Of a stretch of 64,000 nucleotides of DNA, positions 6,475 to 62,230 are shown one piece after another. This stretch comes from Mycolicibacterium phocaicum (GTDB lineage: Bacteria; Actinomycetota; Actinomycetes; Mycobacteriales; Mycobacteriaceae). The stretch lies in the NCBI RefSeq assembly GCF_010731115.1, contig NZ_AP022616.1, forward strand, positions 5,789,198 to 5,853,197, in the 5' to 3' direction. The number at the start of each line of letters is the position of its first letter. Position 1 is the first letter of the stretch. The notes under the pieces are model-generated. The model made no database searches and had not been told where the DNA came from. It saw only the letters and a program-made list of their open reading frames with translations. The translations under genes and the position numbers were made by a program.

Positions 6475-7577
6475 GAAATCTCCTCGAGTGCAGAGGTATT
6501 GGGGTCCAAGGCGTGGCGCAGCAGATCGTGGTCGATGGCGTGGGCGGTGAAACCGTTGTGTCCGGTCATCGTGGTGGCGGCGACCATCGCGTTGACGATC
6601 GCCTCCTCGGTGGCCTCGATGGTGAGGTCGAACAGCCGGGTCATCAGCTGCGGTGCGACCATCCGCAGGGCCACCTCTGGGTGTGCAGTGGAGGCGTCCT
6701 CGTCCCACGCGTACGGCGGGATTCCACGGTTGCCTGTCGAGAACGCGAGCATCAGGTCACCGCTGTACTGCTCGCCGGTGCCGCCGAGGCGACCCACCGC
6801 CAGCGCCGAGCGTTGCGCCAATCGGGTGCACTGATGGGGGAGTAGCGGGGCGTCGGTGGCGATGATGACGATGATCGAGCCCGATCCCGGGGCGTACTGC
6901 TTGGGCAGGTCGGGCAGCGGCACTTGGCTGGCTCCGATGAGTTCGCCGACCGGCACGCCGTTGATCCGGAGGCGTTCCCGCCGGCCGTGGTTGGCCTGGA
7001 CGAGGACCCCGACGGTGTACTGCCCGGCGGCTGTCTCGGTGCTGCGCGACGCCGTACCGATGCCACCTTTGAAGCCGTGGCAGATCATCCCGGTGCCGCC
7101 GCCCACGTTGCCCTCAGTGGGCGGTGCGGTGGACGCCGCCTCGAGCGCTTGGCGGGCGTGCTCGGGACGGACGTGAAAGCCGTTGATGTCGTTGAGGAGG
7201 CCATCGTAGGTTTCGCCGACGACCGGCAGTGACCAGTAGAGGCCTGCGCCACGGGCGCGGACCTGGGCGGCCACCAGTTCGTCGCGCACGACGCCGACGC
7301 TGTGGGTGTTGGTCAGCCCGATCGCGCTCGTGAGCTCGCCGGATTCGCGGATCCACTCCAGGCCGGTGAGTTCACCGCTGCCGTTGAGGCGGTGCGAACC
7401 GGCGAACAGCGGCTCGGTCCAGATGTCGTCATGCGGAACGACGACGGTGACGCCGGTGTTGACGCCGCCGTGCTTCAGGGTTGTGTGCCCGACCCGCACG
7501 CCTTTGACGTCGGTGATGGCGTTGGCCGGGCCGGTGGGATGTTCCCCGATGACCACGCCGAGATCTCTGGCACGCAT
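6471..7577 (-). CDS. P1 (DmpA/BapA-type) aminopeptidase
   Basis: The 368-residue protein belongs to the N-terminal-nucleophile peptidase family S58 (DmpA, BapA). It starts MRARDLGVVIGEHPTGPANA and contains NVGGGTGMICHGFKGGIGTA. The self-cleavage site PGSGSIIVIIATDAP has the nucleophile serine near residue 235, after glycine. These enzymes release N-terminal D- or beta-amino acids or act on amides. It forms a two-gene operon with the permease and is divergent from a TetR gene with an inverted repeat between them. Confidence 0.9.
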   Translation of the reverse strand: MRARDLGVVIGEHPTGPANAITDVKGVRVGHTTLKHGGVNTGVTVVVPHDDIWTEPLFAGSHRLNGSGELTGLEWIRESGELTSAIGLTNTHSVGVVRDELVAAQVRARGAGLYWSLPVVGETYDGLLNDINGFHVRPEHARQALEAASTAPPTEGNVGGGTGMICHGFKGGIGTASRSTETAAGQYTVGVLVQANHGRRERLRINGVPVGELIGASQVPLPDLPKQYAPGSGSIIVIIATDAPLLPHQCTRLAQRSALAVGRLGGTGEQYSGDLMLAFSTGNRGIPPYAWDEDASTAHPEVALRMVAPQLMTRLFDLTIEATEEAIVNAMVAATTMTGHNGFTAHAIDHDLLRHALDPNTSALEEIS

Positions 7578-7593
7578 TGCTTCTCCCGAGTTT

Positions 7594-7610
7594 TTTTCCT
7601 AATTGGAAAA
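7594..7610. promoter_or_regulatory. Inverted repeat TTTTCC-N5-GGAAAA, probable TetR operator
   Basis: The arms TTTTCC and GGAAAA flank TAATT. The AT-rich repeat stands out in its GC-rich surroundings and lies between the divergent peptidase (start 7577) and TetR gene (start 7664). Its position directly upstream of the peptidase start fits repression. Confidence 0.55.
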
Positions 7611-7663
7611 GAACTATGCGCCCGCGTTCCACGTCTCGCAATAGAACGGGCAAGATTGGTGCC

Positions 7664-8275
7664 ATGGCCCGGCCCAACAAGCAGGAGGAGCGGCGTCGCG
7701 AGATCATGGACGCCGCGATCGCACTGATCGAGCGACACGACCTGGCCACCCTCAAACTGGCCGATGTCGCCGAGGAGCTGGGGCTCACCACCAACGCGGT
7801 GCGGTACTACTTCAAAGACATGACGCAGTTGCTCTCCGAGCTGGCGCTGCGCTCCGACGTGCGGTTCTACGACGCGCGGCTTGAGTTGCAGCGGTCATCG
7901 GCCGACGTCCGCGAGCAGCTGGTGATGACGATGGCTGCCGGCCTGCCCACTGGGCCCGAGGACGCCGAGTGGCGTGCGATCTGGCGGGCCGTGCTGTCGG
8001 CCGGCTTCGAGCTTGACCGGCGCAGCGACGTGCAGGGCATTTATCACCGGCAGGTCGGCCTTTACGCCGATCTACTGTCGGGCGGCCAGGAGAGCGGGGT
8101 GTTCCGGTTGCTGCACCCGGCGCGTGATATCGCCATGACCTTGATGTCGATGGAGGACTACTTCGGCTACCGGATCGCCGCACGCGATCCGGATCTGAGC
8201 CGGACGACGGCGCTGCGGCTGATGCGCCAGTATGCGGAGCTTGTGGTCGGAGTGCCGCTTCCCGAAATCGACTGA
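7664..8275 (+). CDS. TetR family transcriptional regulator
   Basis: About 203 residues from the ATG at 7664 (MARPNKQEERRREIMDAA). The helix-turn-helix is LADVAEELGLTTNAVRYYFKD (about 30-50), and the C-terminal domain resembles the BetI/TetR_C group. The frame is open further upstream, but the family N-terminus and the intergenic operator favour this start. It probably controls the divergent peptidase-permease operon. Confidence 0.88.
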   Translation: MARPNKQEERRREIMDAAIALIERHDLATLKLADVAEELGLTTNAVRYYFKDMTQLLSELALRSDVRFYDARLELQRSSADVREQLVMTMAAGLPTGPEDAEWRAIWRAVLSAGFELDRRSDVQGIYHRQVGLYADLLSGGQESGVFRLLHPARDIAMTLMSMEDYFGYRIAARDPDLSRTTALRLMRQYAELVVGVPLPEID

Positions 8276-8387: not shown

Positions 8388-8924
8388 TCATGCCCTGTTC
8401 CTTTCAGGGTGGCGTCGGAGTTCGCGTCGACTGCAAATGTTGCCGCCGTTCGTGATTGGGCTCTTTTGGTCGGTGTCGTGGTACCGGGAGTCCACCGCTG
8501 TCGAGTCGGGACTCGTGGTGCGTGGTGCCGAGTCGAGGAGCTGGTCGCGCACGGCGGGCGCCACCGCTATGAGCGCGGTGGTGAGTTCGCGGACGCTCTG
8601 GTCGTGAACGAGGCTCAGCCAGTCGAGGTCTGCGTCGACGGCGCGGGCGTAGCCGCTGTCGGTGTCGAAGTACTCGACTCGAACACCGAAGAATTCGGCC
8701 AACATCTCCACAGTCCGAGCGGACGGCCCGCTGCGAACCCCGCTGCGTAGTTGCGACAGGTAGGGCGCGGACAGCCGGTATCCGCGGCCGGCCAGCGCCT
8801 CCGTCACCTCGACATTGCGATAGGGGCCGCGCCCGGGCGGGTAGACAACTGCGAATAATCGATTCAACCGTTCGGTGAACGCGTCGACATCGACCGACAT
8901 TCCGCGGTGCTTCCTGGCAGCCAT
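8388..8924 (-). CDS. EspR-like helix-turn-helix regulator
   Basis: The 178-residue protein resembles EspR (Rv3849), the nucleoid-associated regulator of ESX-1 substrate genes. RLNRLFAVVYPPGRGP is followed by SAPYLSQLRSGVRSGPS, the recognition helix, and a second helical domain containing VEYFDTDSGYARAVDADL. An unrelated hydrophilic tail of about 45 residues follows that EspR lacks. The ATG at 8924 has a GGGAGA ribosome-binding site; a second ATG at 8900 is possible. It is divergent from the A-B-B'-A' cassette. It is not espR itself: the N-terminal spacing and the tail differ. Confidence 0.85.
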   Translation of the reverse strand: MAARKHRGMSVDVDAFTERLNRLFAVVYPPGRGPYRNVEVTEALAGRGYRLSAPYLSQLRSGVRSGPSARTVEMLAEFFGVRVEYFDTDSGYARAVDADLDWLSLVHDQSVRELTTALIAVAPAVRDQLLDSAPRTTSPDSTAVDSRYHDTDQKSPITNGGNICSRRELRRHPERNRA

Positions 8925-9295
8925 GAACTCTCCCGGATTTGATTGTGGTGCAGGGACTTACGATCCATCGCCCGCTCGGCGGGAGGGGCTGGTTGGGTGG
9001 CGTGCAAGCGCCTGGTGATGACCGCCCGGGGGTGCGGCATCGGGGTTGACTGCTGGTTCGGTGGAGCCGCAGACGGTACTCCACGGACTGCGGCGCCGCC
9101 GCAACGCGGCCCGAGCCGAGCACGTCGTCGGATCCGCTACGGCACCATACGCGGCACCAGAACGCCATGACGCTGGCACACCTGTTGTCGCGGAAGGTGT
9201 TTCATCGATGATCTGCGGTCCGAGTCAACGCCGGGATCGCGATCTGTCTACGAAGTGTGGCTGCCACATGTGGTGGTTGGAAGAAGGGTTTGGTT
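8925..9295. other. 371-bp divergent intergenic region between EspR-like gene and cassette
   Basis: No gene is recognised. The region is the presumed control region for both directions, and the EspR-like protein is the obvious candidate to bind it. Short open frames here lack family support. Confidence 0.4.
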
Positions 9296-9859
9296 GTGCG
9301 AACCGCAACTAACTGGCTACTGTGCGAAACCGCGCTCGCATCCGATGGCGGCGTCGTCGTCATCGAAGATGCTGGAACGGCAAATGTTTCAGACACATAC
9401 GTGCACGCCGAAATCGCGCCCGCCCCAGAGGCCGTACACAGGGCGTTGTGGGTGCACACCATGAATGTCCACGAATGCGACGTCGTCGGCCGACGCGTAT
9501 ACGTACGCGTACTCTCCGGTTCGGACGCCGGCGGCCTCGGTGTCCTCGCCTTCGATGGGCACCTGAACATTGCCAGCGGAATCGTGGCGACCGGCGAACT
9601 CCGAAACCCAGACCGCCAGCTACTTGTTGGGCCGCCGGGAGTGATACGCGTCAGCGTGTTCGTCGCCCACGACATCGACGCTGTCTATTTCGATGACTCC
9701 GGCGTCAGCTACCCCGCATCAGGGCCCAGTGAGATCACCCTGTTGCTGCACGGTGTGTCCTGGCACACCCGCGCCGTCAACAGCACGCGGTGGAGCCGCA
9801 TCTCGTGGCGGCGTGGCCGCAGAGGTGTCCCGCCAGGCCTGCCGCCCGTTGTGACCTAG
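9296..9859 (+). CDS. Unknown protein A1 (family A of the A-B-B'-A' cassette)
   Basis: About 187 residues from the GTG at 9296, which follows GGAAGAAGG by about 8 bases; an in-frame GTG at 9257 is the longer alternative. I do not recognise the family. The protein has no signal peptide or membrane segment. Notable stretches are ECDVVGR, FDGHLNIASGIVATGELRNP, RQLLVGPPGVIRVSVF and SGPSEITLLLHG, with a hydrophobic beta-strand pattern suggesting an all-beta fold. It aligns without gaps for about 108 residues to the protein at 11400-11951, roughly two thirds identical by eye. It ends in a basic tail absent from its paralogue. Confidence 0.7.
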   Translation: MRTATNWLLCETALASDGGVVVIEDAGTANVSDTYVHAEIAPAPEAVHRALWVHTMNVHECDVVGRRVYVRVLSGSDAGGLGVLAFDGHLNIASGIVATGELRNPDRQLLVGPPGVIRVSVFVAHDIDAVYFDDSGVSYPASGPSEITLLLHGVSWHTRAVNSTRWSRISWRRGRRGVPPGLPPVVT

Positions 9860-10032
9860 ATCACCGTTCGGTTTTGCTGCTGATTCCCGACTACACCTTG
9901 CACAGGCTCGTCATCGGCGACGGGTGTGCGGAGGTCGGTCTGCTGGACGGGGGATGTGGTCATGGGTGATTTCTCACCGACGAAGGTGAAGCAAGCGCCG
10001 CGGGCGTCGGCGCCTTCCGGGAGCTGACGTCG

Positions 10033-10611
10033 ATGACTGAACTATCACGCAACCGCCCTTTTGGGCCGGACACCCATCAGGATTGGGCCCCGTACTCCGA
10101 CCTGGTGCAAGCGGCGGAGGCGTACCTGCGCGATCCGGCGATCGCGCTGGAAGCGTTGTACCGGGTGATGGATCCCTCCGCGATCAAGGCGTTCGTCATG
10201 GAACGCACGCTCGAAGAGAAGGATTCGCGTGAATCGTTGTACCAAGAGGTTGCGGTGACCGACGGCCGGACATTGCTGCTGTGGATGGGCGACGATGAAC
10301 TCACCGACGACGACGATCCCGAGCCTGGCGAACCCTTGCTGACATCGACGCTGCGCTCGATTCCGTTGTCCGCGTTGACTGACCGCAATCTCAAGGTCGG
10401 GTACCGCATCGATCACCGTGGCGGACGGTCGCTGCACAGTGTGGAACTGCGGCTGGTGACCACGACGACCGACTACGCCCTCGCCAAGACCCCGTCGAGG
10501 ACCGAGTCTTTCAGCGAGGAGCTGCTGTTCACGAAGTCTGTGACCGACGGCGGACGAGCGCAGATGGAACGGCTGATTCAGTTCGGAAGGGTGCTAGCCG
10601 CACATGGCTGA
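10033..10611 (+). CDS. Unknown protein B1 (family B of the cassette)
   Basis: The protein has 192 residues, starting at the ATG at 10033 behind a GGGAG site. The family is not recognised. It is acidic and soluble, with SLYQEVAVTDGRTLLLWMGDDELTDDDD in the centre and a C-terminal MERLIQFGRVL. It is paralogous to the next gene: both share QEVAVTDGR, a hydrophobic LLW/ILW strand, an S-L/R-L-T/S-D motif and MERL-(I/L)-(Q/E)-F near the end. Its last codons overlap the next start by 8 bases, so the two are co-translated and may form a heteromer (inference). Confidence 0.72.
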   Translation: MTELSRNRPFGPDTHQDWAPYSDLVQAAEAYLRDPAIALEALYRVMDPSAIKAFVMERTLEEKDSRESLYQEVAVTDGRTLLLWMGDDELTDDDDPEPGEPLLTSTLRSIPLSALTDRNLKVGYRIDHRGGRSLHSVELRLVTTTTDYALAKTPSRTESFSEELLFTKSVTDGGRAQMERLIQFGRVLAAHG

Positions 10612-11119
10612 TTGGGCATCGCACAGACATCTTCAGCAGGCGGTAATGCTCGGCGTCCGTAATCCCGAAGCGGCGCTGAACAACTTGCGCGCCTTCATCA
10701 ACTTCGACACTGCCTACTCATTCGTGCTCACGCAGCGCCCCGCATGGCAAGAAGTCGCGGTCACCGACGGTCGACGATTGATCCTGTGGCACGGCTCTGA
10801 CACTGAATGCGCCGGCCACGATGATCGGTTGCCGCACCCGATGTTCCAGTCCTCGGTGCGGACGGTGCTGTTGTCGCGGCTCAGTGATCAGGCCGTGCAC
10901 ACCGACTACGACGTCATGCCTGACGGCTCTCACGAGCTGGTGTCGGTACGCCTGCGGCTGTACACGCCGATAGTCAACAGCACGACCCGAACCACTCCCG
11001 AGGACAGTCAGCACTACGTCGAGTGCTACCTCTTCGACAAGAACGCAGACGACGGTCAGGAAGAAATGGAACGACTTCTCGAATTTGCGGCCGCACTGTC
11101 GATTTCGACCAGTGCGTGA
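10604..11119 (+). CDS. Unknown protein B2 (family B of the cassette)
   Basis: The protein has 171 residues. The ATG at 10604 lies inside the 3' end of B1 (ATGGCTGA). Shared blocks with B1 are AWQEVAVTDGRRLILWHGSD, TVLLSRLSDQ and EEMERLLEF; the N-terminus is shorter and the acidic DDDD stretch is missing. No domain is recognised. Similar length, order and direct coupling with B1 indicate duplication followed by divergence. Confidence 0.72.
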   Translation: MADWASHRHLQQAVMLGVRNPEAALNNLRAFINFDTAYSFVLTQRPAWQEVAVTDGRRLILWHGSDTECAGHDDRLPHPMFQSSVRTVLLSRLSDQAVHTDYDVMPDGSHELVSVRLRLYTPIVNSTTRTTPEDSQHYVECYLFDKNADDGQEEMERLLEFAAALSISTSA

Positions 11120-11399
11120 CGGGCCGCCAGGCGTGACAGGGCCTGACGCCGCCGATATCACCCGAAGAGCCTAGGAGGTCAATGTGTTTCGGGACGTGCC
11201 GAGGATTCTGCAGTGTCTCGCATCGATACCGATGGTGTTGTGGACCGTGATCACCACAGCCGCTCGCAAACCGGGAGAAGCGGCCGACCGGAGAAGTCCG
11301 CACGATTCTGGGCAGTACTTCGCGGACGATCCATGGGTGGATTGAGCAGCATCGGTCACCGCTCGGCATGAGGCGCGGTCGTGCGGGGGTCGAGAGAGA

Positions 11400-11951
11400 G
11401 TGAATGCGGCTGTGAAAAGAGGAGACGTGGCGGCACGAACGGCGGCGAACAAGCTGCTGTGCGACATCATGATCGCACCCGACCGCGGCGTCGTAGTCGT
11501 TGAAGATGCTGGGGTACAGGGGATTACGGGCACCTATATACAGGCCGATATCGACCCCGAACCCGCGCCGGTGCAGCAGGCACTGTGGGTACGAACCATG
11601 AGTGCCGGCGAGTGCGACGTCGTCGGCCGGTTGATCCGGGTCCGCGTGTTCTCTGGCTGGGACACCGGAGGGCTTGGTGTCCGCGCATTTGATGGCCGGC
11701 TCAATATCGCCAGCGGGCTGTTGGCCATCGGTGACCGCCGTAATCCCGAGCGTCAACTGCTGGTAGGTCCATCTGGTGTGATCGGTGTCAGCGTGTTCGT
11801 GGGCCACGACGTCGACACCACCTGTTTCGACGAATCCGGTATCGGTTACCCACCATCGGGTCCCAGCGAGGTCACCGTGCTGCTGCACGGAGATTCGTGG
11901 CACACATACACGTTGCGCAACACGGTCGATCGGTGGCGGATCCGGTGCTAG
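11400..11951 (+). CDS. Unknown protein A2 (family A of the cassette)
   Basis: Up to 183 residues. GTG codons at 11400, 11412 and 11427 are possible starts; an AGAGGAG stretch at 11418-11424 makes the exact one uncertain. It is paralogous to A1: ECDVVGR, FDGRLNIASGLLAIGDRRNP, RQLLVGPSGVIGVSVFVGHD and SGPSEVTVLLHG match block for block. It has no signal peptide or membrane segment. It closes the symmetrical A-B-B'-A' arrangement. Function is unknown. Confidence 0.7.
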   Translation: MNAAVKRGDVAARTAANKLLCDIMIAPDRGVVVVEDAGVQGITGTYIQADIDPEPAPVQQALWVRTMSAGECDVVGRLIRVRVFSGWDTGGLGVRAFDGRLNIASGLLAIGDRRNPERQLLVGPSGVIGVSVFVGHDVDTTCFDESGIGYPPSGPSEVTVLLHGDSWHTYTLRNTVDRWRIRC

Positions 11952-12031: not shown

Positions 12032-12535
12032 GTGCTATTGAAAGTCATGCTGCCGAAAATCTCTCTCGCCCCGGCCTTGGCGTTGTTGGTGGCCGTGCCG
12101 CAAGCGCACGCCGATCGCCCGGAACCGGTGCCGCTGTACGGCAGCTACGACACGTTTCTCGATCATTCGCGTCAGACGTTCAATGGGCGCCCGGATACAT
12201 CGGACCCGTCGACCCAGGCGGCCCTGTTCCGGACCGTGTGCGACGCCGGCGGTTGTGTTGCGCACTGGCTGAGAGTGACTGAGCTCAAAGAGAATCCGAA
12301 TGCGCCGGCGCTGTTCGACTATCGGTGGACGGGTGACCGCTGGGAATCATCGGGAGACTACCCGTTCCATTGCGGCCCGAATGGCGTTGCGGTGACGGCA
12401 TTCCGGTCCGATTTCCTGAAGCCCAATGGTGACGGCAGTTTCACCGGGGAGCGGACGTTCACCGTGGCAGCGCCGGGCTGCCCCGGTGACGGGGCCGGAA
12501 CCTACTGGTTGCTATTCACCCTGACGCCGACCTAG
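12032..12535 (+). CDS. Small secreted protein
   Basis: The protein has 167 residues from the GTG at 12032, or 162 from the ATG at 12047 (MLPKISLAPALALL), which gives a cleaner signal peptide ending at QAHADRP. The mature part begins PVPLYGSYDTFLDHSRQTF and has four cysteines (VCDAGGCVAHW, FHCGPNG, APGCPGD), suggesting two disulphides. It resembles the exported mycobacterial proteins with a YGSYDTF-type opening. Function is unknown. Its 3' end overlaps the convergent membrane-protein gene by 20 bases. Confidence 0.75.
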   Translation: MLLKVMLPKISLAPALALLVAVPQAHADRPEPVPLYGSYDTFLDHSRQTFNGRPDTSDPSTQAALFRTVCDAGGCVAHWLRVTELKENPNAPALFDYRWTGDRWESSGDYPFHCGPNGVAVTAFRSDFLKPNGDGSFTGERTFTVAAPGCPGDGAGTYWLLFTLTPT

Positions 12536-61855: not shown

Positions 61856-62224
61856 GGGGCTGAACGGTTTCGACTTCGCGCATCGAATCAAGGGAAGCGT
61901 GCCGGTGCAGGCAAGAGACCACCGTAAGCGTCGTTGTAACCAATTAAGCGCCGATTCTCATCAGCGCGACTACGCCCTCGCTGCCTAAGTAGCGACCGCG
62001 TGTCTGTCAGACCGGGAGCGCCCTCGGCCCGGACCCTGGCATCGACTAGAGGGACCCACCCACGGGGCCGGTCGCGGGACCCGTGGGGACATCAAACAGC
62101 GACTGGGATCGTCATCTCGGCTTGTTCGCGTGACCGGGAGATCCAAGTAGAGGCATAGCGAACTGCGCACGGAGAAGTCTTGAGGGAATGCCGTAGGACC
62201 CGGGTTCAATTCCCGGCAGCTCCA
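61856..62224 (+). ncRNA. ssrA: tmRNA (SsrA)
   Basis: The 5' end GGGGCTGAACGGTTTCGAC and 3' end TTCAATTCCCGGCAGCTCC form the tRNA-like acceptor and T arm (GGGGCUG with CAGCUCC). The tag reading frame at 61950-61988 encodes ADSHQRDYALAA then TAA, the mycobacterial tag type. Pseudoknot stems are recognisable as in M. tuberculosis. The genomic 3' end reads CUCCACAA rather than CUCCACCA, so CCA must be added after transcription. Confidence 0.97.
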
Positions 62225-62230
62225 CAAGGG

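Follow-up and report, generated by a model that had tools for sequence, protein, structure and literature searches.

ComJ restrains NucA in Bacillus competence, and Pfam includes a ComJ model; EspR-like proteins are known mainly from virulence regulation. Homologues of ComJ have been catalogued as an immunity family for ComI-type nuclease toxins, and the same source applies the term polyimmunity loci to toxin-free immunity gene sets of variable content (PMC3482391). Here we analyze a cassette of five genes in a window of 64,000 nucleotides from Mycolicibacterium phocaicum (NZ_AP022616.1, positions 5,789,198 to 5,853,197), which lies at the very end of its single contig of 5.85 Mb. An EspR-like regulator gene (R; 8388..8924, minus strand) stands divergent to A1 (9296..9859), which is followed by B1 (10033..10611), B2 (10604..11119), and A2 (11400..11951), all on the plus strand. 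We propose, with a probability of roughly 0.74, that these genes constitute a toxin-free (orphan) polyimmunity locus in which A1 and A2 would block NucA-type nucleases, B1 and B2 would be accessory, and R would exert control.

A1 and A2 are duplicates, as the first-pass annotation of this DNA had claimed (104/167 residues identical, 62%, E 1e-74). Neither A nor B belongs to a significant family in Pfam, NCBIfam, or PHROGs, which bears out their earlier description as unrecognised. The predicted model of A takes the beta fold of ComJ (structure 4mqd), and genes of the wider A family are linked to toxins with NucA-like tips; fold and neighborhood agree independently. Just as Imm-ComJ genes are described as following ComI-type toxins (PMC3482391), A genes of a related branch follow a NucA/NucB-type tip. 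Unlike ComJ, A finds no match to the Pfam ComJ model, and the window copies have no adjoining toxin.

Distant A genes lie directly behind a gene for a protein of ~670–840 residues. DNase_NucA_NucB is present in four of five such proteins scanned (E 2e-10 to 6e-4; the least significant match falls under the curated cut-off), in one of them together with a pretoxin HINT domain; for the fifth (from genome G077) Pfam gave no hit, but the C-terminus can be aligned with the other tips. A 399-residue N-terminal stretch of the toxin matches 16 of the 248 genomes surveyed. With the fragments L143, L147, L149, and L150 set aside and L142 and L148 taken as one gene, we counted 18 near-complete scaffolds. 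A profile made from six NucA-like tips finds such a tip in 8 of these, and a same-strand A gene comes next in 8/8; six of the eight are from genomes whose tips or A genes went into the profiles, and the independent cases are G141 and the second locus of G246. In fragment L147, too, a weak tip is followed by A. Of the other 10 scaffolds, nine have no A gene in the 2 to 8 kb read beyond the toxin frame, and beside the tenth (L144) stands an A gene with a NucA-tip remnant of its own on the other strand. Seven genes immediately behind other tips were scanned; they encode leucine-rich repeat (LRR) proteins in five cases (L161 and L164 under curated cut-offs) and ankyrin proteins in two (L167 and the window's own genome); DUF4259 comes next in L162 and L165, and DUF4241 in L167. 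The L161 tip is GIY-YIG by Pfam; HNH-like and similar tips were assigned by eye. Overall, these loci (L128–L150, L161–L169) display a mycobacterial scaffold whose tips are interchangeable and whose downstream genes are of types that match the tip.

The same toxin is carried by the integrase-bearing phage Mycofy1 (PQ356897; L120 5977–8429; NucA/NucB E 1.8e-6), with an A gene 5 nt behind it and ~1.8 kb from the integrase. Toxin-linked A directly follows a NucA/NucB-type nuclease in 8/8 chromosomal cases and in one phage, and the window copies do not. Both Mycofy1 genes, toxin and A-type immunity gene, are annotated as hypothetical. PF14040 is matched in 7 of the 248 genomes (one below cut-off), and six of these seven are among the 16 that bear A. 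The scaffold resembles the ESX-secreted PEST toxins in being mycobacterial and phage-carried, with an immunity gene and with tips swapped on a common scaffold, but it differs from them in that Pfam detected no WXG100 domain in the seven scaffold proteins scanned, and inspection by eye shows a hydrophobic stretch at the N-terminus. The window genome has a copy of this scaffold (L093 6048–10013; G000:C1 ~5.322–5.326 Mb) that bears a different tip, is apparently disrupted close to its 3′ end by a transposase gene, and adjoins an ankyrin-repeat gene.

The second line of evidence is the variability of the site itself, which in the window lies between a TetR-family gene (7577..8275, plus strand; Pfam TetR_N) and an MBOE_33420-family gene (12032..12535, plus strand; NCBIfam NF052450, E 9.9e-74). 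We compared the window with G157, G206, G223, lyk4-40, and M. llatzerense, and the stretch beside B1-B2-A2 differs among them. The window has R and A1 ahead of B1-B2-A2; in lyk4-40 the TetR gene is immediately followed by B1-B2-A2 (L104), and G157 has B1-B2-A2 alone, behind a CRP-like gene. In G206 (L046), B1-B2-A2 is preceded by opposite-strand Imm51 and LRR genes. Ahead of B1-B2-A2, G223 carries an opposite-strand Imm51 gene, a PLDc_N-DUF6891 protein, a second A gene, DUF4265, a DUF695-like protein (under cut-off), and an ankyrin protein. Imm51 is a named immunity family, matched at the site with E 7e-21 and 1e-19. In M. llatzerense the order is R (86% over 132 residues), two open reading frames (ORFs), and B1-B2-A2; these two ORFs, in the place of A1 (L107 4688–6327), have no Pfam hits and show hydrophobic stretches by eye. 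The TetR border is present in G206 and lyk4-40 and absent from G157 and G223, and a gene of the same cluster as the right-border gene adjoins A2 in L045–L049.

Two A genes and the B pair, all presumably functional in immunity, stand together without a toxin, and the content of the site varies between relatives; toxin-free adjacency, variation at one site, and the presence of Imm51, ankyrin, and LRR genes are shared with polyimmunity loci as described (PMC3482391). The cassette departs from that description in that A and B have no Pfam name, an EspR-like regulator adjoins, and B1-B2-A2 forms a conserved core. It also resembles the orphan immunity genes described in Bacteroidales, which are kept without a cognate toxin, although those concern a Gram-negative type VI system (PMC10470768). 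An earlier suggestion of a toxin/immunity-like module therefore survives on its immunity side and not on its toxin side, as the cassette holds no toxin of the kind found in relatives and the window no NucA-like tip.

R aligns with solved EspR (4ndw; also 3qf3) over residues 7–132, across the helix-turn-helix and C-terminal region (phmmer E 1.7e-28), with Pfam HTH_3 slightly below cut-off. Its description as EspR-type is right as to family but not as to orthology. R is a paralogue, and the genome's own near-canonical EspR is a separate gene (G000:C1 ~4.055 Mb, E 2.6e-66) that scores 224.6 bits against solved EspR, versus 103 for R. R-like proteins occur in 16/16 A-bearing genomes searched, a count that includes EspR itself. 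In 14 R-type loci, a sample biased by fetching A-bearing loci first and by leaving out similar-score hits in G056, G149, and G157, R faces a divergent A gene in six and a divergent A remnant in two (8/14), and one adjoins B1-B2-A2 without A1. R-linked A genes fall in three places on the A tree, and the R-A linkage is therefore old or recurrent. The 371-bp divergent region between R and A1 (8925..9295) is presumed to be regulatory; its ~140 bp adjacent to R are conserved in M. llatzerense (83%). A shared R-A operator was sought and rejected, as no 9- or 10-mer is common to at least five of seven R-A intergenic regions; by eye, the other six contain a TGACACRTCAGTC-like stretch that is not clearly present in the window.

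From these results we infer three roles. In the cytoplasm, A1 and A2 would bind and block incoming DNase tips of the NucA/NucB type, much as ComJ binds NucA, the toxins coming from the polymorphic repertoire of other mycobacteria or phages and the two diverged copies perhaps covering different variants. B1 and B2, a co-inherited and probably coupled PH-like pair, may protect against the same toxin class as accessory immunity, possibly at the membrane. For R, control of A1 is probable and control of the rest of the cassette possible.

Several observations weigh against this reading. Only one of five A models is good (predicted local distance difference test score 71; the rest 44–48), and the Pfam ComJ model was unmatched by 24/24 A members at E<=10, in a search whose HMMER filters discard most weak matches; judged by sequence, A does not count as a member of the Pfam ComJ family. 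In the A tree of 35 rows (matches of <95 profile positions excluded), the window branch is separate from the toxin-linked branch, and no examined member of the window branch adjoins a NucA-like tip. G012 has A ~7 kb downstream of an other-tip toxin, with a NucA-tip remnant between. The survey that found A patchily, in 16/248 genomes, overlooked it in G098, G141, and G239, and R-type genes stand without A in 5/14 loci. The window genome has no PF14040 match and no resident target was found, by a model that also missed the divergent tips in G077, G141, and G246.

Window-branch A might instead be a domesticated ex-immunity protein that restrains a resident nuclease or another partner under R. The missing NucA-like tips, R-A linkage in separate branches of the A tree, and four loci (L048, L053, L054, and L108) with no A, B, R, or NucA-tip neighbor, where other immunity types were not searched for, fit that idea. 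Yet the lack of a PF14040 match counts against a resident target, G206 and G223 carry Imm51, LRR, ankyrin, and DUF4265 genes at the site, and duplication with patchy spread suits immunity better than housekeeping, so that we regard domestication as unlikely. The same lack of a PF14040 match, together with the different tip on the genome's own scaffold, is why we take the A pair to target the toxins of others.

The distribution of A was followed further. A is found in 3/348 genomes of the order, in a first pass that scored few candidates. A1 is 80% identical to the second A gene of G223 at the corresponding site and groups with it (support 99/96) inside a B-linked group (96/87). Separate R-A loci in other genomes had suggested that the order arose by joining an R-A1 module to a B1-B2-A2 module; this was ruled out by the position of A1 within the B-linked group, apart from other R-linked A genes. 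Matches to A2 occur on one plasmid (M. aubagnense) and in one phage, and toxin-linked A matches that same phage and no plasmid; a scan of viral contigs with A2 gave no confirmed relative. Phage or plasmid origin was rejected, as B1 is unmatched in both collections and A2 has only those two matches. On the M. aubagnense plasmid (NZ_CP122996.1; L119 8046–8534), the A-family gene lies between IS3 transposases, and G056 has another small A array, two tandem genes with no NucA-like tip nearby (L064 9221–10587).

B1 and B2 are more diverged than the A pair, as originally noted (61/174 identical, 35%, E 6e-29). They are inherited together, and the B2 copies of 15 loci cluster as a single group (support 100/98). 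B1 shares 97% identity with a protein labelled Mycolicibacterium mucogenicum, and B occurs in 4/246 genomes of the class. The predicted B model looks PH-like, a weak likeness to bacterial PH-like proteins (3dcx) seen by Foldseek alone; unlike those, B has no Pfam PH match. A JetA hint for B2 (PADLOC E 0.0031, 14.3 bits, 62 residues) was dropped because it is absent for B1. Elsewhere in the window genome, a third, single-copy paralogue sits directly behind nusB (G000:C1:1057503-1058039, minus strand; L094).

This neighborhood gives ground for doubting that B serves immunity. Single B adjoins nusB in 10/10 mycobacterial loci examined (beside NusB/EF-P), a housekeeping-like setting; the tandem pair is ~1 kb from nusB in 5/13 tandem-pair genomes and has no adjoining A in 9/15 loci; and two long B proteins have an N-terminal part with no Pfam hit and no DUF4259. 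The pair could then be a housekeeping PH-like protein, linked to nusB, that was duplicated and came to lie next to A2, leaving A1 and A2 alone as immunity genes, in which case the A part of our proposal stands. Against this, DUF4259/DUF4262 is joined to B in one lineage, in one case downstream of a toxin and A, so that B does occur within an immunity-type protein, and where L071 has the B pair, L066 and L067 have DUF4262-DUF4259-B plus DUF4241 at the same genomic site. In tests that ignore the relatedness of genomes, the toxin scaffold also co-occurs with pair or fusion genomes and not with single-B genomes; counting against our own proposal, A too overlaps single-B genomes above expectation (8 vs 3.0 expected). 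We treat the housekeeping origin as a serious minority possibility. The open-licence literature, the only literature within scope, yielded no paper on A, B, or the toxin scaffold and, judged by title, none linking DUF4259, DUF4241, or DUF4262 to immunity.

These distributions also bear on two further ideas. The A-B-B′-A′ order and close packing had suggested two hetero-complexes, A1-B1 and A2-B2, or a surface assembly. But B pairs without A, single B beside nusB, and A without B are common, A1 is nested among A2-type genes on the tree and is not placed as an old partner of B1, and B1-B2-A2 stands without A1 in G157, G206, lyk4-40, and M. llatzerense; we find such complexes very improbable, and with A and B so widely apart, the notion of a single module was abandoned. 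Small paired genes with a divergent regulator would also suit a toxin-antitoxin operon with B as toxin and A as antitoxin. That arrangement is scarcely credible when 42/248 genomes have single B without pair or fusion, with no A found in 38 of the 42 by the first A survey, and when the B model looks PH-like.

Under the polyimmunity proposal, two unannotated families gain a testable function, and an immunity bank without a matching toxin probably lets the cell survive toxins of relatives or phages. The linkage to R suggests that EspR-like proteins also adjoin interbacterial immunity genes. A broader and rather doubtful extension would see EspR-paralogue-linked, toxin-free islands that combine a new two-subunit PH-fold module, B1-B2, derived from the nusB-linked gene, with a new ComJ-fold family as a regulated defense against tip-swapping, WXG100-less mycobacterial and phage toxins.

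All five ORFs lie where the first-pass annotation placed them, and their dN/dS ratios (nonsynonymous to synonymous substitution) of 0.11–0.23, against one or two relatives (R 132 codons, A1 162), argue that the genes are real. The start of A1 is backed by homologues; that of A2 common to most homologues is, by alignment, GTG 11427 rather than 11400, and is probably the conserved one. The reported mirror symmetry holds for gene order, which is palindromic, but not for the DNA, as there is no inverted repeat and all four A and B genes are on the plus strand. Translational coupling of B1 and B2 remains plausible, since the B2 ATG at 10604 overlaps the B1 stop (10609–10611) by 8 nt. A single operon is not demonstrated because of the gaps of 173 nt (A1 to B1) and 280 nt (B2 to A2); scans gave one promoter site (0.9 expected) and no terminator (2.1 expected), none above chance. 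Inspection of A and B by eye, with no predictor run, revealed no signal peptide or membrane segment. Elsewhere in the window, an ARAGORN tRNA-His call at 6523–6617 lies antisense within a long opposite-strand ORF and is likely a false positive, and a tmRNA gene with the tag ADSHQRDYALAA occupies 61856–62225.

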